Assembly: GCA_024516035.1 (NCBI GenBank)
Contig: CM044962.1
Span: forward strand, 1,216,864-1,280,863
Direction: 5' to 3'
Origin: Bactericera cockerelli
Lineage: Eukaryota; Arthropoda; Insecta; Hemiptera; Triozidae
Length of the DNA stretch: 64,000 bases
The notes beneath the pieces are model-generated. The model made no database searches, had not been told where the DNA came from, and saw only the letters and a list, made by a program, of their open reading frames with translations. Position 1 is the stretch's first letter. The number at the start of each line of letters is the position of its first letter. This document shows positions 1,425-58,039 of this stretch, piece after piece. The translations under genes were made by a program, and so were the position numbers.

Positions 1425-4400
1425 ATGGACAGTAAGGAATCAGAAGAATTTGACATTGGTTATGAAACAATGGATGGAAATTTACCCCAAAATATGCTAA
1501 GGAGTCAAAACCAAGCACTTTCAAACAGGGAGTCATCTTCAATTGCTTTGAGCAGCAGTAACTCAGCTAGTGGTAATTATTATTTTAGAATCAAGTGTTC
1601 TTATTCAATGTGTCATAAATGCTGGTTTTCTGGATATATAGTAGGATAACACTATTGTATTGTTATAATGAACAACAACAAAGGGGTCTGCTCATTCTTA
1701 AAAAAAAAAATAGAAATTTACCTTCCCTTCTCCAAGGCATGCCACCAAAGTCCAATAAAAATGTGGTTTTGATTGTATTTTCTGATTTTACCTTTGAATT
1801 AGAGAAATATTTCACCACACCATACTATCATTAATGTGATTATTTCATGTGATTCCAAACCAGCAAGAATAACCAGGGGCATAGTTATGGGGGCTGTCTT
1901 GTGTTAGACACCCACTTTTTACTATCATTAAAATTCAATAAAATTGAGACTTTAAAAAACAGTCACCCCCATATCTATGCTTGCCATTATAAGGTCAGAG
2001 TAGTCACCATGGCCGAGTGAGTTAGTGTGCTAGGCATTGCATGCACGGTGACCTAGGTTTGATCTCCAGCGGAGTAGAATATTTTCTGCTCTGTACTTGG
2101 GTGTTTGGGGTCCACTCATACCTCATAAGGAAAAATGAGTAGCTGCTTTAATTATAGAAGCAACCAATGGCGGAATCATAGGCAAAACAATAAGATATTG
2201 GGATATTTAAGATTTGGAAAAGTCCTATAATTCTGCGCTACCCACTAAAATTGTGATATAATAACATAAAAAAACACATTTATTTATTTATTATAAGGTC
2301 AGGATTTTCATCAAAACAGCATTTAAATGTCATTAAGGGTTTACAAAGCTCATTTTTTTAAAACAATATGTATAATTTATTCTCATATTCCAGAGAGGCA
2401 TTATACAATATACAAAGTGTCTATTTTTCACACTAAATATTATAGCTCGGGTAATCTTGTGCCAATTTTTGAACTCTTTTTTTTTTTTATGTAAAATTTG
2501 AAAAAAAAATTCTGATCTTAACCATCATCCAAATTTCTACATTATAGATGACACAGATCCCTCTGAAACGGGTTGCCCTGAAATAAGTCTACACCACTCT
2601 AAAATTACCACAGGGCAAATAAATGCAGTAGCTAACACACCAGGCATGACCCCAGCTCCAGCTTCAGCTGCAATTGAGTGTGTGAACCGGCCCACCACTC
2701 AACGGAGCACTAGTGAAGCTGCGTATAACTGGCAAGCAACAAAAACAACAGTTAAGGAGAGGTTTGCGTTCATGTTCAACAATGAGATCTTGTGTGATGT
2801 TCACTTTGTTGTTGGGCGGGACAGAGAGTTGCAACGCATCCCAGCTCATCGGTTTGTTCTGTCAGTCGGGAGTGTTGTGTTTGATGCAATGTTCAATGGA
2901 ACCTTATCTACTCAGGAGGAAGAGATAGAATTACCGGATGTGGAACCTGCTGCTTTTCTCGCCTTGCTTAGGTGAGAACAACACACACATATATATTACG
3001 AGTGCTTATTATTTATTTGAATTAATTAGAAAAAAATGAAAGATACAAGAAAATTGATTAAAATTATAAAAATATTTTTGATTTATTTGTTTACACTTTA
3101 TTTAGGAAGGGTCGTTTGAGTGGCAATTCAAAGGGAAGTGGTAAAGTGACTTGTAAAGCTTTATGAAGCGGAAATACTTTACACTTAAGCTATTTGTAAC
3201 TCATCAAGTATGAAGTGTAAAGTTTTTTTTTATGAAACGAGCCCCAGATAGTTGAAAACCACAGACCTCCTGACGCCATACTCTTGAACAGACAGTCAGC
3301 TAAATAGAAAAAAAAAAGATCTTATGGGAAATCGAGATCCTCGTGCTACTGTTAGAAGAAGAAGGGTTGGGTGGAAGAGATTGCCATAGGCAATATCCCC
3401 GCCCTTTAGTTGTGACATATGTTTCTATCTATTTTTCTATTCTTTTTCTTTTTTATTGTATATATATTATTGTTTCCATTTTTTCATTGTTAAAATAATT
3501 ATTTGTACTGTACATATCGTCGCTTAAGAAGAGGTACCTCGTAAGTCCGATTTTTGAACTTTTCAGGAGACAGTAAAAACTGATTATAAAGTTGTGGGCA
3601 GGTTTAAAAAAAATAAAAAAAATCAGTTTAACCATAAACATATACCTGTTTTATCGATTGAAATTACTATTTTTTTGATAAAACTTGTATTTTTACGAGA
3701 TATCGGACATACGAGGTACCTCTCAAGTGATTCTTGTAAAATTTTCAGAAAAGCATGTGTGCATTTTTTGTAGAGGTACCTCGTCGTATCTCTGATTTAT
3801 TTTACACAATACACATATATTACTGATTGGAGATACGAGGTCTCACCAGAAATTTTCTTCAAAACAAAAATATCGATTTACGAGGTAAACTTTAATCGAT
3901 TATTGTGGCATTTTTTGTATTTGAATGGTCATATAAAACCGATTTTAAAAAAATCGATATTTTTTTCTGATTCCAACGATACCAAAAACGTATTATCGAA
4001 AAATTCGGACTTACGAGGTACCTCTTCTTAAGCGACGATATGTCCATTTGTATCTAATAAAATGTTGAATAATAATAATAATAATAATACTGTTTGAAGA
4101 AGAGAAGAATCCTCCCTATGATTTGAAAATCTATGAAACATCAGTCAACTCTTTGAGAGATAAACTTCTCAAGCCATCACATGTTCCACTGAAAGACTAG
4201 AGCATTGTTGGCAAAGTTTTTATTTTTTTAGGAGGTTTTTTTTCAATTTTCGATTATTATATTTTTTATATAAGCTAGGATATTTCTAATTATATTAATA
4301 TTTGTATTAATGTAAGTCACGGTGGCCGAGTGAGTTAGGGTGCTAGGCATTGCACGCACGGTGACCTGGGTTCGATTCCCAGCGGGGCAGGATTTTTTCT

Positions 4401-7400
4401 GCTTTGTACTTGGGTGTTCGGGGTCCACTCATACCTCGTGAGGAAAAATGAGCAGCTGCTTTAATGTTAGCAGCGACCAGTGGCGGTATGATAGGCAAAA
4501 ATAAGATTTTGGGATATTAAAGATACGGAAAAGTCCTATAATTCTGTGCTGCCCACTAAAATTATGATATAAGAACACAAAGAAACACATTATATTATTA
4601 TTAATATTTTTAGTTTTGTATAAATATGTAAAAAGGAAAAATTGTGTAAATATGTAGTTTCCCTAAGTTAATATAAAATTAAAAAAAAAAAAAAAAATCC
4701 GATAACGAGTCCGCCGCCTTATGGATCGATCACCTCTTTCACAGGTTCCTGTATTCGGACGAGGTCCACATCGGCCCTGAGACTGTGATGACCACCCTGT
4801 ATACAGCCAAGAAGTACGCCGTGCCTGCCCTGGAGAGACACTGTGTGGACTTTCTCAAAAGCAATCTCAGCTCGGACAACGCTTTCATGCTGCTCACTCA
4901 GGTTGGTTGCGGTCAGTTGTGTAGGTGCTCTGACTACTGCTCTATGTCCAGACTTCCAGGGTTCAAATCGCCGGTCAAGCAGATTTTTTGTTTGTTTTTT
5001 TTTTTAATTTTCAAAGTTTAACAAAAAAAATTTTTTTTTTTTTAATAATGTATATTTATTTATTTTAGTTTTTCATTACAATTTTTGTGGCTCTCTCCCT
5101 AAGGAATTCTTCTAAGGAGAGACCTTACAATGACTTTTACAATAGAGAAACTTAAAAATACAATTTCATATAAATAGGATTGAAAAGTAAGGGAAAAAAT
5201 TTACCTATTTTAAACAGTACAATATTTTATTATTTTAAGGATAAATTCTGAATAATTTCAAATACCTACTTTAGCTTTTAACGTTGAATGACAATTTTGT
5301 TCTATAGCGAGCATTGACTCATCCATACAATTAAGAAACTTAGGAACGAAGTAGTCGGGTAATCTGCTCCCGTAGTTTGAATTAATTCTGGCAGATTGAA
5401 AATTTTGATGTCTTAAATTATAATGCGTTGGTGTCTTTTGTCTAAATTCTTGATGATAGAAGTATAGATGATTTAGGAATAGTATTTTTCTATTTTCAAT
5501 TTAAGTTCAACGTTGCTTTGAACTTCATGGTCATATCACCACGTTAATAGTTTTATATATTTTTATCCTCCCTTTTTTTATAGCTTTGTGCTTTGGCCTG
5601 ATTAGATTAAATAATATTATTTCAATGCCGCCACTGGCCGTTACTGATACAAGTAAATACTCATTTTCCTCACGAGTTATGAGTATACCCCAAACATAAT
5701 AACACTCTTTAGTAGAAGGTAACCACCAGGCGAGGTTAATGCTCAAAGCATTTTCTACCACCTAACCTACAGAGTCTTATTTTTATATGGTCACAAACTC
5801 AAATGAAAGGGGAAAAATTCGTGCATTGGGTGGGATTTGAACCAACGGAACCCTACGCTACCTGAAATACTAGACTAGCGCGTTAACCACTTTTTTTTTA
5901 TTAACAATGTTGGATTTTTACAAAGGTTCTTTTCCTAAGCTAATGATAAAAGCTTCTAAGAAATCAGTGACTATCAGTGCACAATAATATTGTAATATTA
6001 TGGTAATATTGCAAGAAAAATGTTTAATAACAATAATCTTTTCACAGGCGCGTCTGTTAATAACAATAATCTTCTCACAGGCGCGTCTGTTAATAACAAT
6101 AATCTTCTCACAGGCGCGTCTGTTAATAACAATAATCTTTTCTCAGGCGCGTCTGTTAATAACAATAATCTTTTCACAGGCGCGTCTGTTAATAACAATA
6201 ATGTTTTCACAGGCGCGTCTGTTTGACGAGCCCCAGCTGGCCTCGCTGTGCCTGGACTCCATAGACAAGAACACCCCCGAGGCTCTGGCGGCTGATGGCT
6301 TCACTGATGTGGACATTGACACTCTGAGCGCGGTGCTGGAGCGAGACACGCTGCGCATTCGCGAGATCAAACTCTTTCAGGCTGTGATACGGTAAGCTGT
6401 TGTTGTAGCGGCAAAGCTATACCGAGGGAGGTGTGATGGTCGCTAACCGGGTTACTATTTTTTTTTTTTTTAAAGATGAGTGTTCCACAGCCGTTTTTAT
6501 TTCGTAGCCATGAAACAGGAGCTACTGCAGACGCTTGTGGTCTGTGTTGTAGCCTGCCCATCCCGTAGTATGCATCCCCTCTGATGGGCGAGAAGTGACA
6601 CAATACTTCCCAAATAATAGCTCAGATGGAGTATCGTAGTCAAGTGGTTAACGCTCTAGTCTGGTAATCCAGGTAGCGTAGGGATCAGTTGGTTTGAATC
6701 CCACACAGTGCATGAAATTTCCTCATTAATTTGAGTTTGTGAACACATAATAATGAGACTCTGAAGGTTAGGTGGTAGAAAATGCTTGCAATTAATTTAA
6801 TCATTTTCGGAGCATTGTCCCGTTATTCCTAGCTCGTCCCGGCCCCCAAACGTTGAGTTTAGACTCTTTGACCAAAGATCAGTTCTAGGCACCCTACCAA
6901 CACTTTCATGTCCTTTTAACGGCATGGTCTTCATGACGGAATTACAAAGCTTTAATGGTTCATAAAAAAAGGTTCTGTTTTAACTTAGATACTGGACGAT
7001 TTGGCTTCCGTTTGTCTGTCTGTCTGTTCCGAGATAACTCCTGACCGGATTCTTCAAAATTGATGAAAATTTGTATACATGTTTATTGGGGTCCTAGAGT
7101 CTGGTCCTCTGGTCCGAATCGAGTGGGGTATTGAATGAAAGGTCTCAATGTCCTCATGCTTGATTGAACATTTAAAATGCGATAGTTGAATCTGTGTGAG
7201 GTTTACAGTTCACAGAACTACTAGATATATAGTGTCTGGCTGGGGGACGATAAACAGGGAGAAGACCAGTGTCCCGCTAGAGGACTATAAACAGAGAACA
7301 GACTAGCCAACCCTTACAAGCCAGGCTAGCTTGCAGTTTCCTAAGGGTTTAATGGCTTAAAAAGAAAAGTCCAAGTCCTCATGATGGTTGATCGCACATA

Positions 7401-10400
7401 GAAATATGTGCTCCTTGACTTACCCATGAGTCAAAGACTAGCCTCGTGAGGTCAGCGTTAGCGTGCACGGTACTGGAGAACAGCAGTAGCGTGTGGAGAG
7501 CGGGCATGCGCAGAGAGTTGACGAGGAAGGGCTTGCTGGTCTCTAGCAGGGACCTGGCATCAGGTTCCGGGAGAGAACACACAAATAATTAGGGTTGGGT
7601 GGAAGAGATTGCCATAGGCAATAACCCCACCCTTTAGTTAGAATATCTTTATATTCTAACTGGGGTGGGGTTTAAACTGGCTGGGGGACTTTAAACAGGG
7701 AGAAGACCAGTGTCTCGCTAGAGGACTATAAACAGAGAACAGACTAGCCAATCCTTACAAGCCAGGCTAGCTTACAGTTTCTTAAGGGTTTAATGGCTTA
7801 TAAAGAAAAGTCCAAGTCCTCACGATGGTTGATCGAACATAGAAATATGTGGTTCAGGACGAGCCAACTTTGAAATACAGTTGGCTGGAGACCATCACTC
7901 ACCCATCCAGCTGTAGCCAAGCTGGCTACAACAACAACTAGATATATAGTATATACAATTATACACACATACGTCCTAACCCCGCCCTGTAGTTAGGACA
8001 TAATATGTGTTATTATTATTATTATTCTACAACGCTTTATTAGGTATAAATGGACATTATGTACATACAAATAATTAATTTAACAATGAAAAAAATGGAA
8101 ACAATATAAGTATAAGTAGTGCTTTAATTAGACTGTCGGCGCAAGACAGGTAGTCCCATTATGCCAACATTTTTATACAATGTATATACAATGAAATATA
8201 TATACAATGTATACAATAAAATATATACAATGAAAATGAAAAAGAATAGAAAATATATAAAAACATAAGTCCTAACTATCTCTTCCACCCAACCCTTTAT
8301 GTGTTCATCAGCTTTTATATAAATTTTCACCCCCCCCCCCCCCCCCCCCCCCCCAGATGGTCGGAGGCGGAGTGCGCGCGTCGTCAACTCCCCCTCTCCC
8401 CCGAGAACCAGCGCTCCGTGCTGGGGACCGCGCTGCACCTGGTTCGATTCCCGCTCATGTCCGTGGAAGAGTTCGCGGCAGGGCCCGCCCAGTCCGGCCT
8501 TCTCAGGTGAGTTTTCAGTCTTCTATTACGAGGCCTTCTCAGGTGAGTGTTCAGTCTTCTATTACGAGGCCTTCTCAGGTGAGTGTTCAGTCTTCTATTA
8601 CGAGGCCTTCTCAGGTGAGTGTTCAGTCTTCTATTACTATGGCCTTCTCAGGTGAGTTTTCAGTCTTCTATTACTATGGCCTTCTCAGGTGAGTTTTCAG
8701 TCTTCTATTACGAGGCCTTCTCAGGTGAGTTTTCAGTCTTCTATTACTATGGCCTTCTCAGGTGAGTGTTCAGTCTTCTATTACTATGGCCTTCTCAGGT
8801 GAGTTTTCAGTCTTCTATTACGAGGCCTTCTCAGGTGAGTGTTCAGTCTTCTATTACTATGGCCTTCTCAGGTGAGTTTTCAGTCTTCTATTACGAGGCC
8901 TTCTCAGGTGAGTTTTCAGTCTTCTATTACGAGGCCTTCTCAGGTGAGTGTTCAGTCTTCTATTACGAGGCCTTCTCAGGTGAGTGTTCAGTCTTCTATT
9001 ACTATGGCCTTCTCAGGTGAGTTTTCAGTCTTCTATTACTATGGCCTTCTCAGGTGAGTTTTCAGTCTTCTATTACGAGGCCTTCTCAGGTGAGTTTTCA
9101 GTCTTCTATTACTATGGCCTTCTCAGGTGAGTGTTCAGTCTTCTATTACTATGGCCTTCTCAGGTGAGTGTTCAGTCTTCTATTACTATGGCCTTCTCAG
9201 GTGAGTTTTCAGTCTTCTATTACGAGGCCTTCTCAGGTGAGTGTTCAGTCTTCTATTACTATGGCCTTCTCAGGTGAGTTTTCAGTCTTCTATTACGAGG
9301 CCTTCTCAGGTGAGTTTTCAGTCTTCTATTACTATGGCCTTCTCAGGTGAGTGTTCAGTCTTCTATTACTATGGCCTTCTCAGGTGAGTGTTCAGTCTTC
9401 TATTACGAGGCCTTCTCAGGTGAGTTTTCAGTCTTCTATTACTATGGCCTTCTCAGGTGAGTTTTCAGTCTTCTATTACTATGGCCTTCTCAGGTGAGTT
9501 TTCAGTCTTCTATTACTATGGCCTTCTCAGGTGAGTTTTCAGTCTTCTATTACTATGGCCTTCTCAGGTGAGTTTTCAGTCTTCTATTACTATGGCCTTC
9601 TCAGGTGAGTTTTCAGTCTTCTATTACTATGGCCTTCTCAGGTGAGTTTTCAGTCTTCTATTACTATGGCCTTCTCAGGTGAGTTTTCAGTCTTCTATTA
9701 CTATGGCCTTCTCAGGTGAGTTTTCAGTCTTCTATTACTATATTACGACCCCCGACAGCTTGATGGCGGACTTTTTTCTGTTTGTTTGACAAATGGTCTT
9801 GACTTATAATTTATTATGAATGACCCGTCAGAAAAAAAGAGACAAAGAAAAGATTCGAAATTAGATATCATATAATTATGACAAATGGTCTTGACATATA
9901 ATTATGAATGACCCTTCAGAAAAAAGAGTTATAGAAACGATTCGAAATTCGATATCATATAATTATGACAAATGGTCTTGACATATAATTATGAATGACC
10001 CGTCAGAAAAAAAGAGTTATAGGAACGATTAGAAATTAGATATCAAGGGAAAAAATTGGTTTATGATTATTCGATTTTACTATGTTTTTGTTATCTTTGT
10101 ATTTAAAACAATCTGTTATAAATTTCTTGTTAAACTACATATTATTTAATATAATTTAAATATTTTTGTAACCTGGAGATCATGAAAATGATTAACACAA
10201 TTATATATCTCCCTTGCCTTTATCCCATATTAGCTTGTGTTGCTATTGAGGTCGGCATTGTTCAACCTCATGGTTGAGATTGGTAGGGTGGAGCAAGTTT
10301 GTTTTACGGTTGGATGCCCTTCCTAACGCGGCGTTAGCCTCCATTCGCTTTGAATCGTACCAGCTACGGCATTGTCGGCATTGTTCCAACCGGAAATGCC

Positions 10401-13207
10401 AACCTCACATGAAACAAGAGCTACTGTAGACGCTTGTGGTCTTTGTTGTAGCTTGCCCATCCCGTAGTATGCCTCCACTCTGATGGGCGAGAAGTAACAC
10501 AATACTTCCCAATTAGGTGCTGTGTCAACACGAGCGCACCGGAAGGTATCCCTTACAAACAACTGTAACCAAATTAAAAATGCATTTTTCTGGGGATCGG
10601 CACGGGGGATCGAAATCGGGCCCTTCCGCATGACATACGAGTGCTTAATCACTAAGCTAATCACGCGCTATTAAGTGAAATTAAAAATATAATTATTATT
10701 TTTATTTTTTTTAAACCTGTTTTCCCCAGTGACGCCCTGCTGGTGCGGCTTTTTCTGTACTTCCACGTGACGCCCAAGCCCGCCATTCCCTTCCTGGATG
10801 GCGCCCGCTGCTCCATGACGGGCAAGGAGCAGATTGTGACTCGCTTCACGCACATTGAGAGCCGCTGGGGCTACTCGGGGACCAGTGATAGGATCAGGTG
10901 AGCAGGGTTTATACACACACACACACACAAGGAGCAGATTGTGACTCGCTTCACGCACATTGAGAGCCGCTGGGGCTACTCGGGGACCAGTGATAGGATC
11001 AGGTGAGCAGGGTATACACACACACACACACACACACACACAAGGAGCAGATTGTGACTCGCTTCACGCACATTGAGAGCCGCTGGGGCTACTCGGGGAC
11101 CAGTGATAGGATCAGGTGAGCAGGGTTTATACACATACACAAGGAGCAGATTGTGGCACCTTTTTTAATACTTTATTGGCAAACTACATAATACTTACTG
11201 CAACATCGGACTCAGTTTTAGTTTGGACTGGCGCATTATTTATTTTATTTATTCATTAATTTATTTATGTATTCATTTTATTTTTTTTTCATTAATTTAT
11301 TTATTCAATAATTTATTTATTTATCCTCAGGTTCAGTGTGGACCGGCGCATATTCGTGGTTGGGTTTGGTCTGTACGGGTGCATCCACGGTCCCCAGGAG
11401 TATGAGGTGCAGATGCAACTGGTGCGAACAGCCAACGGGAAGGTTGGTCGGGTTGAATAATAATAAATCATAAATAATGAATTATAAATCATAAATAATC
11501 TCTATAATATATAAAACTCAAATCTGTGTGTCTGACTGGCAGACTATGTCGTATATGTATAATTAAAAGTATCCTAGTTTTATATAATATTACATACATA
11601 TACCTAACAATTTGGATTTCTAATATGAACCTAATGACAAATAAGACTATGTCTCGTCTTAGGGTTTGTCTGTTTACAATACCACAGCCCAAACGGTAAC
11701 AGATATTGTAAAATTTCATGAGAGTTGTGACCCCTCTTAAACCACCGTCAAACTACCTAGAAAATTATCAAAATAAAAATACCTGTTACCATTTTCAAGG
11801 TATGAGGATTTTTTGGTCCAATAATAATTCAAATAGGACTCCAGCCACGGACAAAGTGCCGAGATTTAGCTAGTAAATTATGAATTATGAATAATTATCA
11901 ACTATGTAAAAATAAAATAAAAATAATAATGAATAATAAATCATATTTTCTCGAGTTCGATCCCCGATCGTAGCAGATTTTTCACACAGAAAATTTTGTT
12001 CCTCCGTACATGTGAGGCTGGCAGTTCTCAAAAGTTTAACAGCTGTAAAGAAAGAGTCCAATTTCTCACGATGGTTGATCGCACATAGACATAAGGGTTG
12101 GGCGGAAGAGATTGCCAAAGGCAATAAACCCGCCCTTTAGTTAGGCCATGTGAATATATTTATTTATTTATTGTCAACTTTTTCCTGTTGTTTATCTTTT
12201 CTTGTTTTTTTTTTTTTTTTTTTTTTTTTTTTTCTTTTCTTATATTGTATATTAATTTGTAATTATCCGTTGGTATATAATATGTCCTTATGAATAATGA
12301 GTATAATAATAATGGTTGAGAACGAGCGCCACTTTTCTCTTGAGTTGGTGGAGACCATCATTCCCTTCTCCAGCTGTAGCCAAAGCTGGCTGCAACAAAC
12401 AACAAAAACAACAACATGAGATAATAAAGTAAAAATAAATCGATTTCCTCTTCTTGTCTTTGCAGGTGATAGCAAGTAATCGAACCTCGTTTGCGTGCGA
12501 CGGGTCGACCTTTACGTCTCGTGTGATGTTCAAGGAACCTGTGGAGATTATGCCGAACATTAGCTACACAGCGTGCGCCACGCTCAAGGTAAGTTTTTTT
12601 CCTTCATATAATAATAATAACAACACTCTTTAGTGGAAGGTAACCACTAGGCGAGGTTAATGCTCAAAGCATTTTCTACTACCCAACCCTCAGAGTTTTA
12701 TTACAAATGCATGCACTGTTTGGGATTCGAACCAACGGATCCCTACGCTACCTGGATTACCAGACTAGCGCGATAACCACTTGACTACCAGTGCACGAGA
12801 TCACTTGGCTCGTGGGACTAGGTAAAAACATTTATTATCTTTTTTATATATTATATTATCTCTATCTTCACCGACTTCAATTGCTTGATCGATGAGGCGG
12901 CGGACTTATAACATGGAGGTCCGTGGTTCAAGTCCCGGTTTCAGCGTGGATTTAGTAAAGCGAGTTTGAGGAGTTATGATACCACGAAAGTGATTAACAT
13001 AATTATGATAACTTTTATTATTTATTATTATCTCCATCTTCCCCCCAGGGCCCCGACTCACACTACGGCACTAAGGGCCTCCGCAGTGTCACCCTGGACT
13101 GTCCAAGTGGCGGAAAGGTCACCTTCCAGTTCTCCTACGCATCGGGCAACAACAATGGCACCTCAGTGGAGGATGGACAAATCCCGGAGATCCTGTTCTA
13201 CTCGTAG
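1425..13207 (+). CDS. BTBD2-like: BTB-BACK-PHR protein, BTBD1/BTBD2-type (nine exons)
   Basis: Coding exons: 1425-1572, 2548-2971, 4745-4901, 6213-6391, 8357-8506, 10730-10897, 11331-11442, 12466-12588, 13049-13207. They total 1620 nt, giving 539 aa. All junctions are GT-AG and phases agree throughout, with TAG at 13205-13207. The N-terminus (1-105) is Ser/Thr-rich and low in complexity. The BTB/POZ domain runs about 125-225 ([39 protein letters not shown]). A BACK-like region follows at about 235-350 ([35 protein letters not shown]). A PHR domain covers about 393-539 ([50 protein letters not shown]). Length and domain order match BTBD1/BTBD2, substrate adaptors for Cullin-3 ubiquitin ligases; this role is known for the family and is not visible here. 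Start choice: the first Met of exon 1, which may itself begin after an AG at 1419-1420. Exons 4-7 have multiplied splice junctions, described separately. Upstream non-coding exons cannot be excluded. Confidence 0.93.
2003..2290 (+). mobile_element. SINE family S1 (Ser/Leu-tRNA-like head)
   Basis: The head starts gtcaccatggccgagtgagt (A-box-like) and has a B-box-like tttgatctcc. The body includes a conserved block about the tRNA-unrelated words 'ggggtccactcatacctc' and ends in an AT-rich tail. Copies at 4316-4605, 36118-36400 (minus) and 53146-53430 define the family. It lies in intron 1 of the BTBD gene. Confidence 0.85.
3363..4090 (+). mobile_element. SINE-like family S6, split by a MITE
   Basis: The head is gggttgggtggaagagattg followed by a CCGCCCTTTAGTT block, the hallmark of a family seen about ten times in the window. 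The tail resumes after the 520-bp insertion at 3518-4037 and ends in AATAAT repeats. The intact copy at 8040-8300 (minus) shows the same tail uninterrupted, which proves the interruption. No tRNA-like head is visible, so the class is uncertain. Confidence 0.8.
3518..4037. mobile_element. MITE with long terminal inverted repeats and ATAT target duplication
   Basis: The ends are inverted repeats: cgtcgcttaagaagaggtac inwards from 3518 and its complement ending at 4037, extending about 34 bp. ATAT flanks both sides (3514-3517 and 4038-4041). The word 'acgaggtacctc' recurs inside. There is no coding capacity. The uninterrupted S6 tail near 8040-8100 acts as an empty-site comparison and supports the 4-bp duplication. 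Confidence 0.8.
4316..4605 (+). mobile_element. SINE family S1, second copy
   Basis: It is collinear with the copy at 2003-2290 and has a better preserved B-box-like gggttcgattccc. It sits in intron 2 of the BTBD gene, about 140 bp before exon 3. Confidence 0.87.
5030..5624. other. AT-rich intron sequence without recognised features
   Basis: This follows exon 3 of the BTBD gene. It holds poly(A/T) runs and no open frame with recognisable protein. I see no feature I can support. Confidence 0.6.
5625..5893 (-). mobile_element. S1 fragment followed by SINE family S3 (minus)
   Basis: 5625-5695 matches part of the S1 body in reverse. 5698-5893 is a full S3 copy in reverse, with the tRNA-like head at the right end (gttaacgcgctagtctgg-type sequence and a ttggttcgaatccc-type B box, both read on the minus strand). 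S3 recurs at 6630, 12615, 13926, 20652, 36778, 39986, 42225 and 45962. Confidence 0.8.
6014..6226 (+). repeat. Six-copy tandem array of the exon-4 splice acceptor (33-bp unit)
   Basis: AG dinucleotides at 6046-47, 6079-80, 6112-13, 6145-46, 6178-79 and 6211-12 are spaced exactly 33 bp apart. Each is preceded by aataacaataatcttttcac or a one- or two-base variant and followed by gcgcgtctgtt, the first 11 bases of exon 4. The last copy runs into the real exon. Because 33 is a multiple of three and the unit has no stop in the coding frame, any of the six acceptors would keep the frame. Each earlier choice adds the 11-residue peptide [11 protein letters not shown], up to five times. Known repeats of this kind are minisatellites; real use of the upstream acceptors is untested. 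Confidence 0.97.
6485..6800. mobile_element. SINE S2 fragment (minus) then S3 (plus)
   Basis: 6485-6620 is the 3' half of S2 in reverse (gatgggcgagaagtgacac block, no tRNA-like head). 6630-6800 is an S3 head and body in plus orientation (caagtggttaacgctctagt; a B-box-like ggtttgaatcccac). The first element begins about 95 bp after exon 4. Confidence 0.8.
7232..7410 (+). mobile_element. Dispersed repeat family S9, copy 1
   Basis: It shares gataaacagggagaagacca, the 'gctagaggactataaacagag' block and the 'ggtttaatggctt' block with 7675-7960, 43640-43800 and 43850-44215. Family S9 is non-coding, with a tail rich in aacaacaac. Copy 1 is cut short where the minus-strand exon-like segment begins. 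6985-7140 just upstream resembles a divergent repeat also seen near 17.8 kb. Confidence 0.7.
7424..7553 (-). CDS. Orphan exon on the minus strand (tentative DHX34-like helicase C-terminal region)
   Basis: Read on the minus strand, 7553 to 7424 is an open 130-nt segment bounded by a CAG acceptor and a GTAAGT donor (entry phase 2, exit phase 0). It is clearly more GC-rich than its surroundings. The peptide includes [19 protein letters not shown] and [11 protein letters not shown], which looks like conserved protein. It reminds me of the C-terminal part of DHX34-type DEAH helicases, but I cannot confirm that from memory. No neighbouring exon of the same protein is visible on either side. Repeat copies (S9 before, S6 and S9 after) flank it, so it may be a captured or misplaced exon rather than part of a nested gene. 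Confidence 0.5.
7592..7960 (+). mobile_element. S6 core followed by S9, copy 2
   Basis: 7592-7640 holds the S6 core and its CCACCCTTTAGTT block. 7675-7960 is the longest S9 copy and ends with the 'agccaagctggctacaacaa' tail. Together with copy 1 they bracket the orphan minus-strand exon. Confidence 0.75.
8040..8300 (-). mobile_element. SINE-like S6 (minus) carrying an inserted LINE 3' tail
   Basis: Read on the minus strand from 8300, the S6 head is followed by its T-rich body and the tail ending near 8040. About 66 bp (8103-8168) inside it match the 3' end of the LINE at 32.4-34.6 kb, including the terminal tataagtataag-type tandem repeat. This is a 5'-truncated LINE insertion within S6, not a shared tail: the 3363-4090 copy lacks it. 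Confidence 0.78.
8330..8354 (+). repeat. 25-base C run serving as the exon-5 polypyrimidine tract
   Basis: An unbroken run of C immediately precedes the AG at 8355-8356 that opens exon 5 of the BTBD gene. It would function as the pyrimidine tract. The exact length is likely to vary and to be error-prone in sequencing. Confidence 0.9.
8496..9735 (+). repeat. 34-copy tandem array of the exon-5 splice donor (36/37-bp unit)
   Basis: The unit is ggccttctcag|gtgagt(t/g)ttc followed by agtcttctattac and either ga (36 bp) or tat (37 bp). I count 33 intervals, 12 of 36 bp and 21 of 37 bp, which equals the 1209 bp between the first donor (after 8506) and the last (after 9715). That gives 34 perfect CAG|GTGAGT donors. 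The 11 exonic bases are the true end of exon 5. In the coding frame the next codons after the first donor are AGG TGA, so read-through stops at once and only donor 1 gives the full protein. Each unit also holds ttttcag, an acceptor-like word, 12 nt after each donor. The last eight units are all the same T/37-bp type, the mark of recent local expansion. Confidence 0.98.
9787..10045. repeat. Three-copy tandem repeat (about 90-bp unit)
   Basis: The word tgacaaatggtcttgac starts at 9787, 9879 and 9966. Each copy continues with a gaatgaccc-gtcagaaaaaa block and gatatcatataatt. It lies just downstream of the donor array in the same intron. 10046-10379 shows nothing further. Confidence 0.9.
10380..10680 (-). 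mobile_element. SINE family S2 (full-length, minus)
   Basis: The tRNA-like head is at the right end (minus strand: a gcttagtgattaagcactcg-type A box and a B-box-like region). The body contains the cttctcgcccatcagag block. Other copies: 23255-23530, 30230-30555, 44958-45232 and 53052-53608. It ends about 50 bp before exon 6. Confidence 0.83.
10824..11157 (+). repeat. Exon-6 end and donor present three times, separated by CA repeats
   Basis: The last 74 or so coding bases of exon 6 plus donor and about 12 intron bases (gtgagcagggt) recur. Donor positions follow 10897, 11002 and 11115, periods of 105 and 113 bp. (CA)n tracts of differing length account for the difference. A fourth copy breaks off after aaggagcagattgtg at 11142-11157. 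The copies look identical through the coding part. Only the first is contiguous with exon 6. Copies 2 and 3 follow an acaag dinucleotide context and could act as 71-nt pseudo-exons, which would shift the frame. Confidence 0.96.
11211..11330 (+). repeat. Degenerate upstream copy of the exon-7 acceptor
   Basis: 11211-11236 (ctcagttttagtttggactg and on) matches the true exon-7 boundary at 11326-11351 in about 22 of 26 positions, 115 bp upstream. The sequence between is built of ttcattaatttattt-like repeats. This is an older, decayed analogue of the arrays at exons 4, 5 and 6. Confidence 0.65.
11945..12300 (+). mobile_element. S8-like fragment, S9 fragment, then S6
   Basis: 11945-12035 carries a B-box-like gagttcgatccccgatc and the 'ttctgttcctcc..gtgaggctggca' style block of family S8. 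12040-12090 is an S9 piece. 12092-12300 is S6 with a T-rich tail containing a run of about 29 T. 12300-12420 continues with S9 tail sequence. Confidence 0.65.
12615..12795 (-). mobile_element. SINE family S3 (minus)
   Basis: A full copy in reverse between exons 8 and 9 of the BTBD gene. The B-box-like sequence (minus strand ttggttcgaatccc) is intact. Confidence 0.87.
12870..13012 (+). mobile_element. SINE family S5 abutting the exon-9 acceptor
   Basis: The tRNA-like head (gatgaggcggcggacttat, then ggttcaagtcccgg) is followed by the family's agtaaagcgagtttgag body and a tail ending in ttatgataac. The exon-9 AG lies only about 36 bp further on. Any branch point of this intron is therefore likely to lie in or right next to SINE sequence. 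Other S5 copies: 26265-26395, 27381-27520, 44226-44370, 62178-62320, 63504-63640. Confidence 0.87.
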
Positions 13208-13640
13208 GAAACCCTAAGAATAGTTGGGAACCCTAAAAACAATTGGGAACCCTGAAATTAATTTTGGGAACTCAAAATTAATTGCTCACCCTTGAAACTA
13301 ATTTTGGAGCTCAATATTAATTGGGAACCCTTGAAAATAATTTGAAACTCTTTAAAATAATTGGAACCCTAAAATCAATTGGGAACCCTGAAAATAATGG
13401 GAATCCTGAAAAATCATTTTTAACCTCGAAAAATTATTTGGATCTTTTGGAAATAATTGAGAACCCTGAAAATTATTGGGAATCCTATAAATGGTTGGGA
13501 ACCTTTGAAAATGATTGGGATCTTTGAAAATAATTTGGAACCCTGGAAATGATTGAGAACCCTGGAAATCATTTTAAATACTAAAAATCATTAAACATAA
13601 TTGAGAAATGGAAAATTAATTGAGAACCCTGAAAAAATCG
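13208..13640. repeat. Degenerate tandem repeat in the BTBD 3' flank
   Basis: Beginning directly at the stop codon, variants of 'gggaaccctgaaaataatt' repeat about every 18-22 bases for roughly 430 bp. Sparser related words (aaccct, cctgaaaat) continue to about 14460. It probably forms the 3' UTR. The units are too diverged to be a recent expansion. No clear polyadenylation signal can be singled out. Confidence 0.8.
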
Positions 13641-34879: not shown

Positions 34880-37800
34880 ATGGTCTTTATTGTGCCCAAA
34901 AGTGTTGTCAGTGTCGTGGTGATCTTTCTGTGTGTTATTTGCGAGCAGTCGAACTTCACGGCGCGATTTCGACTCTCATCATGGCCGAACTTAAAAGAGG
35001 AGCTGGATATGATGGACGTGATCGCGTCCAACACAACACAGAAGACGCTACAGGACATTCACACTGAGCTGAACGCGTTGCTTGTGAAAGTGAGAGCGCT
35101 CAACTCTGCCCAGTCGAGGCTGAAAAGGAAGCGATGTCCGGGTCTAACGAGAGGTGAGTTCTGAGTCAAATGGTAATAATAAACTGCCTTATTTATTTTG
35201 TCCCGGTAGCTCAGTGGTAAAGGCGGCGGTTGGGTAATCCAGAGGTCGCGGGTTTGAAACCCAGGTGGACTTATTGCATTGAAACTTTTGCCGACATATC
35301 GTTTGAACACAATGGCTGATAGTAATGAATAAAATTAATAATAACTTGTTTATACGGTCCGATTAACGCTAATGAATTCTATTATTCCAACTGCAAGCCC
35401 AAGATGCATTTATTTTATAATAAGAATAATTTCGCCTTATTTATACTACCCGATTAAGACTGGTAAGTCCCATATTTCCAGTAGTAAGCCCAAGTCGTAT
35501 TATTTTGTGGTAAAAATCCCAAATGGGAGGATAACATGTCATGTCTCTGCTGGGTTTCGAACCCACGACCTCTGGATTACCAGGCAGACGCCTTGACAAC
35601 TGAGCTACCGGAACATACTAATCTAGGTATTTCTAATACTCATTTTGGAATAGTAACTAACTTTGAATAGCGTTTACCAAAATCTCAGAGAAGAATTAAA
35701 AATAAAACATTTAAGTATTTTTAACGTCTTCCCCTATTTATACAGGGTGTTTTTTTTAAACTTGCCACCCCTAAAACTCGAGAACCTTTTGAAATTTGAA
35801 AAAAAACCCTTATCGCTTTATTTTTTAAAGCATTATGTTCTTGCAAGAACAAAAACCAAAACGAATTGCCTACAGCGCCTCAGTCAAGCTAGGCACCATT
35901 TAACCATTTTCTCATTATTTCATAGTACTTCGTCAGAATTTTTCTCTCCGGTCGAGATTAAAACCCGCAATCCCATCAGTAACCTATGCTCTTAACCACT
36001 GAGCCCCGAAAGTGTTAATCAACGTCGACGTTGATCTAAGAGTGCGTTCTTAGAAGTGCATAAATATACCATAGATTCAAAAGTAGATAACGAACTCAGA
36101 TCGAGATAAGAATATAATAATGTTTTTCTTTGTGTTATTATGTCACAATTTTAGTGGGTAGCGCAGAATCATAGGACTTTACCAATTCAATTTTCAATAT
36201 CTTGTATTATTTTTTTTGCCTATGATTCTGCCACTGGTCGCTGCTTCACATCAAAGCAGCTACTCATTTTTCCTCACGAGGTATGAGTGGACCCCGAACA
36301 TCCAAGTACAGAGCAGAAAAAATCCTACTCCGCTGGGAATCGAACCCAGGTCACCATGCGTGCAATGCCTAGCGCGCTAACTCACTCTGCCACGGTGACT
36401 ACAAGAATATGCCATTTGCATTTCAAATGCCATACCGGGGTGAAGTGACAGAGAATGGTTAAGGCAATAACTTCGCCCCGGATTACAAAAAAAAATGTAA
36501 TTAAAAGTAAATAATGTGTTTTATTTTTTTGTACATGTTTTCAAGATTTTTTTTAAATTAATTGTTATTGTTTGAAAAAAAAATAAAGTATAGAAAAAAT
36601 CTACTTCTATAGAAAATGGCTGACACCATGCTAATAGCATATGGTGTCCGCCATTTTCTATTTAGGAAGTGCTTTACATAAGATGCCCATAGATCATTAG
36701 GAGTTCTTATTCCATTCATTGTTTTTAAATCTATGAAATATGCATATGAAAAAAAAAAAAAAAATAATAATAATACTCTTTAGTGGAAGGTAACCACCAG
36801 GCGAGGTTATTGCTCAAAGCATTTTCTAATACCTAACCCTCAGAGTCTTATTAGTATGTGGTCACAAAATCAAATCAATGAGAAAAAATTCATGCACTGG
36901 GTGGATTTCGAACCAACGTATCCCTACGCAACCTGAGTCGTATTTTTCTTTCAAGCAAAGTGGATTCAAATGGAATAAAATGGTCGAACTGGAAGAAAGT
37001 CATTTTTCTTTTGGAAGAGGAAAAATCTTCTTCCAGTTTGGATTTATAACATTCTTGCTTCCATTTCTTTTATAGATTAAGTTTTCATTTTTCCATTGTT
37101 TATCTTTAAAAGTACGAAACGCATTTTTCTTTCACGAATAGTGGGGAAGCTAAACTTGGAAGAAAGTGGAAATATTTGGAAATACCGAACCTGGATTTTT
37201 TTTTTCCAAAAGAATAACACGACTTTGGATTACCAGACTGAATATGTTGAGCCTCGGATAAACGAGGCCCGCGTTATAACGAATTCTTTGCTAATGTATT
37301 TCGTCCTTTAAAATTATTCTACTTATGTGACCCCCTCTCCCCACAGCCATCAACTCTGCCGACGCCGTGGAGCGGGAATGCCTCATGAAGATCATCGGCA
37401 TCCCCGGCCTGTCCCGCTACTACTACGACACGGTCATGAGCCAGCTGGCCAGACAGATCGGCGTCGAGTACAAGGAGGGCGACGTGGTCATGTTGAAGCG
37501 ACTGAACGCCCAGCCCAACTTTGTGGATCTGCCTGATGTGAGAACCCACGCGACTCTCTGTGGAGAGTTTTTTTTTTCTTTCTTTTTTTTTTTGGGGGTG
37601 GGGGGGGGGTTCATTTTGAATTTTTATTTTATTTATTTACTTACTAGCGGGCTGCACCCGCTTCGCCAAGCCATCACACAAACACCACCCATACATCACA
37701 CACCACACCCACACACCACATACACACACCACACACACTCACACACACAAACCACACACACACACACACACACACATCGACACACACACACCCATCCACA

Positions 37801-37961
37801 CACAAACACATCCACACACACACACACATCACACACACACATCCACATCCACACGCACACCCATCCACAGACACCCACCCAAACACACCCACACACACAA
37901 CACACCCACACACATCACACCTACACACACCCATCCACAAACACACACACATCCACACACA

Positions 37962-38025
<64 letters not shown>

Positions 38026-40636
38026 CACAACACACCACAACACACCACACACAAACCACACACAAACCACACACATACACACACACCCATCCACACACAC
38101 AGATCCACACACACACATCCACACACACACACACACACACAACACCACCACACCACCACCACCACCACCACCACCACCACCACCACCACCACCACCACCA
38201 CCACCACCCCACCACCACCACCACCACCACCACCACACACACACACATCATCGCTGTAAATTTCAAAATCCCGAGCCAAATCTATCATAGCGGATATTGA
38301 TAATGTAGCAAACTGGCCTATATTTTGAGAACGGTTTGTCAGAATATGGCAACAAAGGCCTCAAATAAAAGCATGTGATGTTCTGAGACAGTTTTACTAT
38401 ATAAAAAATATAGGTCCTCGCGATAAATTTTAAGTTCCGCGCTGGAATTTGTAAAAAAACGTGAAAAGTCTGAATAAAAGGTAGAAATTTCGAACATTCT
38501 GGCTTATATCTCCAGAACGGTACGTCAAAATGTGGCCTAAAATGAATTAAATGAAAGCTAATTTTGTCTTATGTGTTATTAAATAATAAAAAATATAGGT
38601 CCTCGGGATAGATTTCAAGTTCCAGGGCAAAGACTGTCTTAAAATCGGACCCTTCCTCAAGGAAATACTTGAGGAAGGTCATAACTCAAGGACGGTTTGG
38701 AATTTCGGACTTTTGATAGTTTTCCTGATACCGTACGGCCATTTTACTTGGGGTCATCTCTCATCAATTTTTCGCTATCTCTTACCGTTTCGTCTAAACA
38801 ATTCCTGCACACAAAGATACAAAGCCCGTCCATATTTCTCATTTATGTTTTTTTTTTTTTTTGGTCAATGGTCAAAATTCGACAGTTTTTTTGGTCAATG
38901 GTCATACCACAACTGAGGTGTTACCCTCCATTCGTAGAAAACTCACAAACCGGCTACCCACATTAACCCCACCCAGCCAGGGTTTGGACGGAATGCCAGC
39001 AACACTTACTCATTAGAATTTAATATAGTAAATGTGAACTGGTAGTCAAGTGGTTAACGCACTTAATTTGGATTTAACTTCGCTTTCAACTGCGTGCTTA
39101 AATTACGACCATGGTTTTTCCTTCCATTCATTGAAAACTCACAAATTAGCTCAAATCAATCTCACCCAGCCTGAGTTTATGTTTATCAGATTTTTTTGTA
39201 TATGTTATTGCTATCTTTTTAAATTAAAATTCCTGATAAAGTACCTACTATTTCATACAATCGAAATATACTTTTGCATACACTATGAAATTATTTGAGT
39301 TTGCACAAAGTATTGCTCATTGCATAATCGAAATATATGTCAGGCGTGCATACATATTTTTAGTTCCGGTATTAACGTCGCTTACGACGGCTTGGTCATA
39401 TCACGACGGTGATGGTTTTAGCCTCCGTTTCTCAGAAAATTTCAAACGAAAATCGCGGAAAATACTGTACTCGAGATAACGTGTTCACACACAGGCAGAC
39501 AGACAGACTCACGGACGCATGGACCAATGGCCGAAAACAACATTTTTGGTATCCTGGGGCTATGATTCGTCCAGAAATGTGAAAAATTGGGTTCTCTGTG
39601 TTGGTCAAATTTTCGACGAATACCTTCTTTTCTATAAGAGAAGGAAAGCAAAAATGTTAAAATTCATTTTCAGATAACCGCCTCAAACATGTCCTACCCG
39701 GTGTTCCTAAAGTTCCGCGACACCTCCAAGCAAACATTCCTGAACTGCTGGGAGAACACCCTGTATCAAAAACGGGACCCGGAGTATCTCAACAAAATCT
39801 TCGGTACCAAGCTCTACATAGATGAGATGGACCACACGGACAAAATCCAGATCCACGGCTTTCGGACCATGAATGTGCCCCTTCTGTACAAAATGCTGGA
39901 TACTTTAAGCAGGATGATCAACTTTCTAGACTGGAAGACCAAAGTGATGACGCTGTACCAGTCCAGGTAAGATAAGGATTGAAAATACTCTTTAGTGGAA
40001 GGTAACCACCAGGCGAGGTTCATGTTTAACCCAGATGGGGCTGACGTCCTTCCAGAAGGACGTCCTTCTGGAAGGACGTCAGCCCCATCTGGTGAAAGGT
40101 ACTACGTTGTGGAATTTTTCTAATTAATTCAGCTTGTTGAGGTTAGTTGGCGACACCTTAAGCTCTTTGTTTTGAGTCCGAGTGATAAGTTGACAGCACT
40201 TATTTTGATACAGGACTCAATTTATATCACTCCAAAAAAATAAAACAAAAAATTTCACCGCGTTATCTGGGTTAAGGAATTTTCTACCACCAAACCCTCA
40301 GAGTCTTATTATTATGTGGTCATATACTCAAATAAATGAGGAAAAATTCTTGCATTGGGTGGAATTCGAACCAACGGATCCCTACGCTACCTGGAATGCC
40401 AAACTAGCGCCTTAACCACTTGACTAGCATAGCACGATTCAATGATATTGATGATTTGAAAGAGGACTTCAAAGGATCAAAAAGACTCAAAATTAATTGT
40501 TGTTTGTAAAGAGGCCAAACCTAGATAATTATGAGAAAACTGGATATAAAAGAAACCCCGATGTAGTAGGCTATGCAGGAAATTTGTGCAGCGAGTAGAT
40601 GAGTCGAAAAAATGGCTTTTTAGCTAGAGGTAGAGA

Positions 40637-40687
<51 letters not shown>

Positions 40688-41500
40688 AGTACATCAAGGT
40701 CATGCACATCTACATTCAACTGCTGATACTAATGCGTCCATGACATAACTCAGGTAATGGCTATCCTCTGGTCATGGGTTCGATCCCATGGGTTCTGGAC
40801 ACAAGATAGAGAAAATCACTTATTTATTTAATTAGAAACTCTTCCTTAGTAGAACATAGATCATATTATATACAGACAAATAATGGTAAAAAATAAATAT
40901 AAAATTGACAATATTAATAATATATAAACAAGAAAAAAAAAAAAAAACAAAATATACACATATGTCATAACTAAAGGGCGGGGTTATTGCCTATGGCAAT
41001 CTCTTCCACCCAATCACTTGCGTGCAAAAAGATAATAACATGAATTGGTCTAGCATTGTTGACCTGTCAGACCTGAAGCTCTAAGAAAACCACCCCCCGT
41101 CTCTGTCCGCAGGTACACCAAACACCTGGACACGGCGGGGTACGAACAGCTCCAAACCGAGGGAATCATTGTCAAGCTGCGCACGCGCGCTCTCAAGTTC
41201 GAGTGGATGCGACACACTCGCCTTCTGATGCTCGCACGACCCAAGAGCGAACGCAAGGTCGGCTTCACCGTCCATCTTGCGAACCACGTCAAGTACAAGC
41301 ACAGGAACTTTACGGTTTACATAGACGAGCACCTGTCCACGCACAAGAGGAACCTGTTCCTCATCGCCCGCGGACGTTGTCAGATGAAGAACTGGCTGCA
41401 CTGCTGGACCTGGGACGGCCACATCTACATCAGGAGACGCTCCAATGAGGAGACGCATCGCATTGACACGTTTGCCGACATAGACAAGCTTATCGTTTAA
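34880..41500 (+). CDS. FP25K-like secreted protein, four exons (gene FPL-1)
   Basis: Coding exons 34880-35153, 37347-37537, 39674-39966 and 41113-41500 total 1146 nt (381 aa) with matching phases (1, 0, 2) and GT-AG borders. Start chosen so that the signal peptide (FIVPKSVVSVVVIFLCVIC) is N-terminal; an in-frame ATG lies 54 bp upstream. Residues 35-85 look like a coiled coil. Two segments of the form I-x-G-x-x...L...L (KIIGIPG near 105, KIQIHGFR near 212) follow. The C-terminus (VYIDEHLSTHKRNLF near 320, WTWDGHIYIRR, ADIDKL) resembles the conserved end of baculovirus FP/FP25K-like proteins, a domain also spread through insect genomes. The function of this family in insects is not known to me. 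A paralog runs towards it at 45.7-48.4 kb. Homology to FP is inference from motif shape. No frame breaks. Confidence 0.85.
35200..35617. mobile_element. SINE S4 head (plus) and a second S4 (minus)
   Basis: 35200-35275: plus-strand head (tcccggtagctcagtggtaa, gcgggtttgaaaccca), starting only 46 bp after the FPL-1 exon-1 donor. 35425-35617: full reverse copy. Between them, partial S4 3' sequence appears again near 35360-35410. Confidence 0.83.
36118..36400 (-). mobile_element. SINE family S1 (minus)
   Basis: Full reverse copy with the head at 36340-36400 (plus strand: ctgggaatcgaacccaggtc as B-box complement). Confidence 0.88.
36610..36661. repeat. Perfect-looking short hairpin
   Basis: The arms atagaaaatggctgacacca and its complement (one mismatch) flank a 10-bp loop. 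It lies in the first intron of FPL-1. Confidence 0.85.
36778..37160. mobile_element. SINE S3 (minus) followed by a dispersed repeat
   Basis: 36778-36940 is S3 in reverse, truncated at its head. 36935-37160 is the partner of the repeat at 26935-27150. It ends about 190 bp before FPL-1 exon 2. Confidence 0.78.
37644..38850. repeat. 1.2-kb dispersed repeat with internal CA/CCA microsatellites, copy 1
   Basis: It starts actagcgggctgcacccgct and passes into about 560 bp of (CA)n with CCA/ACA interruptions, then a (CAC)n block (about 38140-38240). After 'catcatcgctgtaaatttca' it continues as unique-looking sequence shared with copy 2 at 49410-50583. Copy 1 lies in intron 2 of FPL-1. Long open frames across the microsatellites encode only His/Thr/Pro or Val/Cys strings and are not genes. 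Confidence 0.9.
38895..39060. mobile_element. S7-type 3' fragment (minus) and an S3 head scrap
   Basis: 38895-39005 matches the 3' half of the 5S SINE in reverse (cacattaaccccacccagcc). 39035-39060 is the start of an S3 head (actggtagtcaagtggttaa). The bridge to exon 3 of FPL-1 (39061-39673) shows small pieces of the same families and nothing else. Confidence 0.65.
39986..40435 (-). mobile_element. SINE S3 (minus) split by a piggyBac-like MITE
   Basis: The two halves, 39986-40025 and 40276-40435, rejoin into one S3 copy with the TTAA target at the break. This dates the MITE as younger than this S3 insertion. Confidence 0.88.
40026..40275. mobile_element. piggyBac-like MITE, copy 2 (inverse orientation)
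   Basis: Same TTAA-bounded CCCAGAT ends and interior as 24702-24965, reversed, with one fewer 16-bp internal unit. Confidence 0.88.
40620..40690. repeat. GA microsatellite
   Basis: (GA)n with a few GGGA and GCGA interruptions in the last intron of FPL-1. Confidence 0.95.
40815..41015 (-). mobile_element. SINE-like S6 (minus)
   Basis: Reverse S6 with head at the right (gcaatctcttccacccaatc) and an A-rich body. It ends about 100 bp before exon 4 of FPL-1. Confidence 0.82.
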
Positions 41501-45232: not shown

Positions 45233-45700
45233 TTGAGCTATTCGTATATTTTGTTCTTTAAAAACTTATTTTTCCTTTGTGTGCCATAGTAAGGAGAGTA
45301 AGAAGAAAAGTAAAATTTTGACGAGATTCATCTTGCATGAAGAAAATAAATAAATAAAAGAACCCAATATTGTAAAATTGTATTAACTAAATTTTTGTGT
45401 TAATCTGATATCACAATAATACTATCTTTTTGCCTAACTTGGGATTCGAACCATCGACTTCCATTTTACATGTCCGCAACCTTATCTATGAAGGGTTTTA
45501 GTTGAAATTTCATACACTGCGACCTAAAGAGATCTCTTGTAACCAAATAGAAAGGAGGTTTCAAGTTTCAAGGAGGACATTCTTCTAAATCTTCGATAGG
45601 ATGTAGGATGGAAGTTCAATCTTCTTACAGTGATAATACATTGAGGGATGAATCGGTTCATTGGTTGAGACAATGATAGGCATGATTATTATTATATTAC

Positions 45701-55966: not shown

Positions 55967-56350
55967 GTCATTCCCTTAGCAACCGTTGTTTGTGCTGTGT
56001 TCTTTTTGATTTCTCCGCAAAATTTGTCTAGAGAAAGCGAAAAATCAAATTATTGAACAGTTTTTATAACTTTTGGACTTTTTAAAAGCCATTTTCTTGT
56101 GTTTTTCTTCATATTAGTGCTAATTTGAACGCATAAAGTGTCCTTTTAAGAATTTGCCCTTTTTCTTAAAGTTCGTGTGATTTAGAGTGACGTCACTGTC
56201 ATTACGTCATAACTATTTGAACATTTGTTGATTAGAATTTTCATTTTAGCCACTCACTTTTTTGTGGAATAAATACTTCTAACTTTTCGTTTTGCCTGTG
56301 TGTCAGCTGACACCATGGGCTGTTGATAGGTTGCTAAGCAACTCATCACG

Positions 56351-57922: not shown

Positions 57923-58039
57923 TGATGTGATATTTTAATCTTTTTTTTTATATAATTATGTAACTTACCCGTTACATTAAAATAGTTCTACATTTTAAAT
58001 AGCTTTTACCAATTTTTAATTTTTATTTATTTATTTTAA

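Follow-up and report, generated by a model that had tools for sequence, protein, structure and literature searches.

The end of exon 5 of a BTBD1/2-like gene, together with its splice donor CAG|GTGAGT, is repeated in 34 tandem copies (array A), and analysis of the reading frame for all 34 donors showed that donor 1 alone restores the conserved BTBD protein of 539 aa. Array A is probably a boundary-spanning minisatellite (a 'mirage'), a tolerated duplication that grew non-adaptively while splicing stayed exon-proximal. Units spanning a splice boundary were also found at other junctions of the same gene and at other exon ends in the genome.

Array A and the host gene

The window, i.e. the whole stretch of 64,000 nucleotides that was analysed, corresponds to C8:1216864-1280863 of an assembly of 565 Mb in 1032 contigs. 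Judged from its sequence, the source gene is an intact psyllid BTBD1/2-like gene. Its product has BTB, BACK and PHR domains (Pfam), matched the human BTBD2 structure 3no8 (E=1.8e-74) and was closest to a protein of Diaphorina citri (83% identity), while the best named matches of a LINE ORF1 in the window were from Diaphorina, Cyamophila and Cacopsylla. The coordinates of the gene and of the repeated junctions are as in Table 1.

Exon 5 (8357-8506) terminates in GGCCTTCTCAG|GTGAGT in phase 2, and the gene and junction named by the sequence-only reading were correct, with an intact frame of nine exons and the end of exon 5 at 8506. A total of 34 CAGGTGAGT were counted on the plus strand of the whole window, every one within 8504-9721, and 0 on its minus strand; 0 of 100 dinucleotide shuffles of the window contained 34 copies (mean 0.45, largest 3). 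The copies were spaced at 12 × 36 bp and 21 × 37 bp, which adds up to 1209 bp as read earlier. Tandem Repeats Finder (TRF) placed the array at 8496-9741 with 34.0 copies, 96% match and a score of 2240; the start claimed by the sequence-only reading was retained, but its end at 9735 was not. The units varied at two places, T or G after GTGAGT and CGA or CTAT at the unit end. Each of the four possible combinations was present, which indicates that units exchanged sequence or that the same changes recurred. The claimed run of identical units at the 3' end is present, with nine units (26-34) instead of eight (permutation p=0.001), and a six-unit word was repeated at units 3 and 13 (p=0.03). Exchange and recent growth are suggested by the four unit types together with this run, in line with the minisatellite-like expansion proposed earlier. 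The donors had also been called strong. CAG|GTGAGT is the consensus donor, yet it is below the strongest possible U1 match, with a computed U1 duplex of -12.3 kcal/mol versus -13.3 kcal/mol for CAGGTAAGT.

Table 1. Features of the BTBD1/2-like gene (window positions) and donor arrays opened elsewhere in the genome
Feature	Position	Strand	Remarks
BTBD1/2-like gene, nine-exon CDS	1425..13207	+	uninterrupted 539-aa frame
Exons 1-5	1425-1572, 2548-2971, 4745-4901, 6213-6391, 8357-8506	+	
Exons 6-9	10730-10897, 11331-11442, 12466-12588, 13049-13207	+	
Array A	8496..9741	+	34 copies of exon 5 end and donor CAG|GTGAGT, 36/37-bp units
Array B	6024..6223	+	six 33-bp copies of exon 4 acceptor; score 72 vs null maximum 31
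Array C	10823..11141	+	three copies, each with the 3'-terminal 75 nt of exon 6, donor CAG|GTGAGC and the start of the intron
Decayed copy of exon 7 acceptor boundary	11211..11236	+	22/26 nt; out of frame
L001 with L012	C1		41 donors across both loci; adjoins exon; gene not named
L009	C1		12 donors; adjoins exon; gene not named
L010	C1		32 donors; adjoins exon; gene not named
L011		-	51 donors; Rap_GAP exon (Pfam 3.6e-30)
L033			CAGGTAAGT array; 46-nt exon, by eye; weak member
L035			CAGGTAAGT array; foreign sequence between the exon's donor and the array; weak member; gene not named
L036			CAGGTAAGT array; begins 194 nt past the exon's donor; weak member
L037			43-bp array, units with CAGGTGAGT or CAGGTAAGT; 1.1 kb with 25 donor-like sites; exon end not reached

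Units spanning the exon-intron boundary were found in arrays A, B and C. Both boundary types were repeated, donors in arrays A and C and the acceptor in array B, and a DNA ligase 4 exon described below had repeats on either side. The array B unit runs from a TTAAT that resembles a branch point through a pyrimidine tract to CAG|GCGCGTCTG, with nine bases on the exon side. The frame is kept by all six acceptors, and use of an upstream one would lengthen the protein by 11 residues per copy. Array C has a partial fourth copy at 11140-11156, and its second and third donors run into a stop. The decayed copy at exon 7 compares with a best match of 18/26 nt among 200 dinucleotide shuffles. Unit length and sequence differed between junctions. 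At 13 junctions belonging to the window's other genes, the alignment score showed no such repeats.

Other repeats and elements were present in the window. A 420-bp tandem duplication with 99% identity lies 5' of the BTBD gene (305-1139), and a degenerate tandem repeat with a unit of 19 bp (AACCCTGAAAATAATTGGG-like, 13210-13573) starts 3 bases past its stop codon. The exon 5 acceptor has a pure run of 25 C as pyrimidine tract (8330-8354) and the Rap_GAP exon acceptor of L011 (minus strand) a pure run of 27 C; both exons bear donor arrays at the opposite end. The LINE at 56330-61813 has two long open frames, and the named relatives of its ORF1 were mostly psyllid. Two opposed exon sets (37346-41500, plus strand; 45700-48100, minus strand), each with a Baculo_FP_2nd final exon (Pfam, E about 1e-6), are probably related genes or retroelement-derived copies.

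Reading frame and choice among donors

Splicing from any of donors 2-34 of array A meets a TGA straight after AGG and truncates the product to 353 aa, and 3 or 4 exon junctions follow this stop at a distance of at least 50 nt; 0 of the 33 downstream donors were productive. The sequence-only reading had correctly placed the read-through stop right after donor 1. Any phase-2 GTGA donor produces this TGA, hence no special design is involved. Since the 33 downstream donors meet TGA at once, donor 1 would have to win. Because no other donor yields the protein, we infer that the spliceosome takes the exon-proximal donor and that donor 1 is used near-exclusively. Exon 5 stays below 300 nt only with donors 1-5, and such limits on exon length also favour an exon-proximal choice. 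The sequence-only reading had offered two options. Strictly exon-proximal splicing appears to be the better one given the intact frame and the lack of a productive downstream donor, while tuning of gene output by unproductive splicing has no support in the present data. That reading had overlooked the duplications at three further junctions of the gene, the presence of like arrays elsewhere in the genome and the published examples of the kind.

Taking nine arrays together, all 178 downstream donors were unproductive; 174 hit a stop and 4 were out of frame. The nine were arrays A and C, L001 (which contains only part of its array), L009, L010, L011 (read in the Rap_GAP frame), two of the 7B2 gene and one of DNA ligase 4.

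Masking of the decoy donors by RNA structure was considered and rejected. The probability of an open GUGAGU was low in all 34 copies (0.001-0.016) and donor 1 (0.006) was not singled out, and the first 255 nt of array A had no extra folding (-53.3 versus -58.0, sd 4.5, for 50 mononucleotide shuffles).

Recurrence at other exons

A count of tandem pairs with a period of 29-43 bp in the genome showed an excess of donor words over four control words, with 1916 places for CAGGTGAGT and 586 for CAGGTAAGT versus 22 for reversed CAGGTGAGT, 6 for reversed CAGGTAAGT, 92 for the scrambled word AGGTCAGTG and 10 for its reverse. One array of AGGTCAGTG, the highest control, reads CAGGTCAGTG, which is itself donor-like. 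Each place is a unit pair and thus the arrays are far fewer than the places for every word. The approximately 100 CAGGTGAGT places listed, all within the first 15.7 Mb of C1, corresponded to four arrays (L001 with L012, L009, L010 and L011), each of which adjoins an exon. Overall, 7 of 9 opened donor-motif arrays on C1 adjoin an exon, one was without a visible exon and in one the exon was not reached. For CAGGTAAGT arrays the figure was 3 of 5 (L033, L035 and L036), with no exon visible at L034 and none reached at L037. At L036 the exon showed a weak resemblance to alpha-catenin/vinculin, with a Pfam match (E=0.0016) that did not pass the cut-off. The 300 nt that precede donor 1 are identical in L009 and L010 (300 of 300), yet these have 12 and 32 donors; the two are not independent and could be recent duplicates or unmerged haplotypes. 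Donor arrays with a common unit were also seen as pairs 130-200 kb apart (L009/L010; C1:45.92/46.05 Mb; C1:47.55/47.75 Mb).

In a random sample of C1 (20 pieces of 10 kb, 200 kb), a 7B2 gene (Secretogranin_V, 9.6e-14) had an array of ten donors at the end of one exon, while the following exon end had a repeat of two copies. The sample also included a DNA ligase 4 exon that is preceded by four copies of its acceptor and followed by three of its donor; the match to 2e2w (1.4e-15) extended over the joint between its first donor and the next exon. There were 67 merged tandem arrays with a period of 15 or more in the sample, so the majority of arrays lie away from exons. L017 has a donor-like array with no exon seen.

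The word counts are the basis on which junctions might be regarded as hotspots beyond the repeat load of the genome; the direct count of junctions is suggestive only and does not demonstrate hotspots, with 5 of 45 junctions inside tandem repeats versus a background of 4.6% (216 of 4682 random positions; P=0.055). The 45 comprised 3 of 16 in the BTBD gene (4 of 16 with shifted windows), 0 of 13 at other window junctions (chosen by eye, several one base off, and scored by alignment) and 2 of 16 in the random sample (exons from an ORF scan, with names by eye except 7B2 and DNA ligase 4); the DNA ligase 4 exon flanked by two arrays was omitted as it had been discovered via its arrays. In the random sample, MAGGTRAGT was in tandem at 2 of 8 sites versus 1/12, 0/4, 0/5 and 0/11 for controls and a background of 5%, numbers too small to be informative; one of the two sites, L025, belongs to an array that lies within an intron, 17 nt ahead of an acceptor, and does not span the boundary. 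Within the BTBD gene, 3 of 4 TRF arrays with a period of at least 30 straddled a junction with at most one exonic unit; the probability of this placement (P=0.0016, or 0.006 given tolerated places) is post hoc, from few arrays, and is not relied on.

Origin of the arrays and comparison with known systems

Tolerated non-adaptive growth is the simplest account of the arrays. A short tandem duplication across the exon 5 donor and the adjoining end of the exon would have arisen and been tolerated if, by exon definition, the spliceosome stayed with the exon-proximal donor. With that donor in use the extra copies would be plain intron, free to multiply, and could have grown to 34 by unequal exchange or slippage. 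The process may have repeated independently at other BTBD junctions and at other exon ends in the genome. Support comes from the CDS, which is intact and conserved with donor 1 only, from the 178 unproductive downstream donors, from the excess of tandem donor words, from the unequal unit lengths and sequences, from the 7 of 9 arrays located by exons and from the 12 versus 32 donors of L009 and L010.

U1 is known to protect transcripts from early polyadenylation, and the donors might be kept because a row of U1 snRNPs strengthens exon definition or blocks early polyadenylation while the cut is still made at donor 1. We consider this unlikely. The donor 9-mer was variable at 3 of 54 sites versus 27 of 93 in the flanks across six arrays (p=0.0005; p=0.014 without L009), a low variability that plain neutrality does not predict and that counts against pure neutrality, but 5 of the 6 arrays were selected via an intact motif, which biases the comparison, and array A alone, with two variable places, has too few variants to be informative on donor selection. 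Regulated unproductive splicing would have some transcripts use donors 2-34, end at 353 aa and decay, with copy number setting the output. The uniform outcome of the 33 alternatives, a stop with junctions downstream, would suit such regulation, but this stop is inevitable for a phase-2 GTGA donor, there was no sign of decoy use and the unrelated Rap_GAP, 7B2 and DNA ligase 4 genes bear similar arrays, which makes it very unlikely.

Recursive splicing, in which each CTTCTCAG|GTGAGT would be acceptor and donor at once and the array would be removed stepwise with internal splicing harmless, appears highly improbable. Ratchet points consist of a pyrimidine run followed by CAG|GTGAGT and the psyllid unit has a like arrangement, but its acceptor score on an ad hoc scale is middling (2.8-5.0, where true acceptors reach 3.8-11.4), such values were equalled by 6.8% of 471 intronic AGs and no good branch point was seen. 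Near-identical units are easy to miscount in assembly; nevertheless, the order of variants was non-random, the flanks were unique and unrelated arrays were present at other exon ends, so there is very little chance that the number of 34 copies is an artefact. A broader reading is conceivable though doubtful, namely that exon edges are hotspots of tandem duplication via a process tied to splicing or transcription (e.g. R-loop breaks in GC-rich exon ends) that has amplified exon-donor joints again and again across the genome, with intact donors as U1 platforms and the exon 4 array able to add 0 to 5 inserts of 11 residues to the protein.

Identical donors by the dozens at several exons of one insect provide a natural dose series for the choice among equal 5' splice sites, in which the use of each donor could be related to its distance and to the length of the exon. 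They also document intron growth that starts at the exon edge, and both gene prediction and assembly can be misled by them.

Boundary-spanning minisatellites are already known as a kind. The name 'mirages' was introduced for tandem repeats across the exon-intron boundaries of amphioxus Adh3. Such repeats were also described in the globins BflGb6 and BflGb9, TnC and PGBD5, at 5' or 3' boundaries with repeated splice signals, and were reported to vary in length without disturbance of splicing (PMC3087553, PMC3902484). These two properties support the tolerated-growth account. Minisatellite-like units over 5' or 3' boundaries are common to the amphioxus and psyllid arrays; mirages were described in cephalochordates, and the psyllid arrays differ in place of description, not in structure. 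The reported amphioxus globin cases have 3 to 6 units compared with 34, 41 and 51 in the psyllid. The psyllid case further differs in being in an insect, with several junctions per gene and donors counted genome-wide, and with splicing predicted from DNA.

Human IFI6 (6-16) has an in-frame unit of 12 bp, and Turri in 1995 reportedly described it as a donor minisatellite whose units are splice donors. Both IFI6 and array A thus have a minisatellite with donor units at an exon end. In IFI6, two downstream repeats are reported to be used as donors and three mRNAs result (PMC4526556), which counts against a purely exon-proximal view. IFI6 downstream donors yield variant mRNAs, whereas donors 2-34 of array A are all predicted from the frame to lead to TGA. 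Intron gain by tandem genomic duplication is likewise a tandem duplication involving splice signals (PMC2812944); it makes a new intron, whereas the nine-exon BTBD CDS is complete without one and its structure is kept. A search of open-licence PMC papers listed no insect case of such arrays. Compared with these known systems, what is new is the insect host, the copy numbers in the dozens, the involvement of more than one junction of a single gene and the recurrence across the genome.
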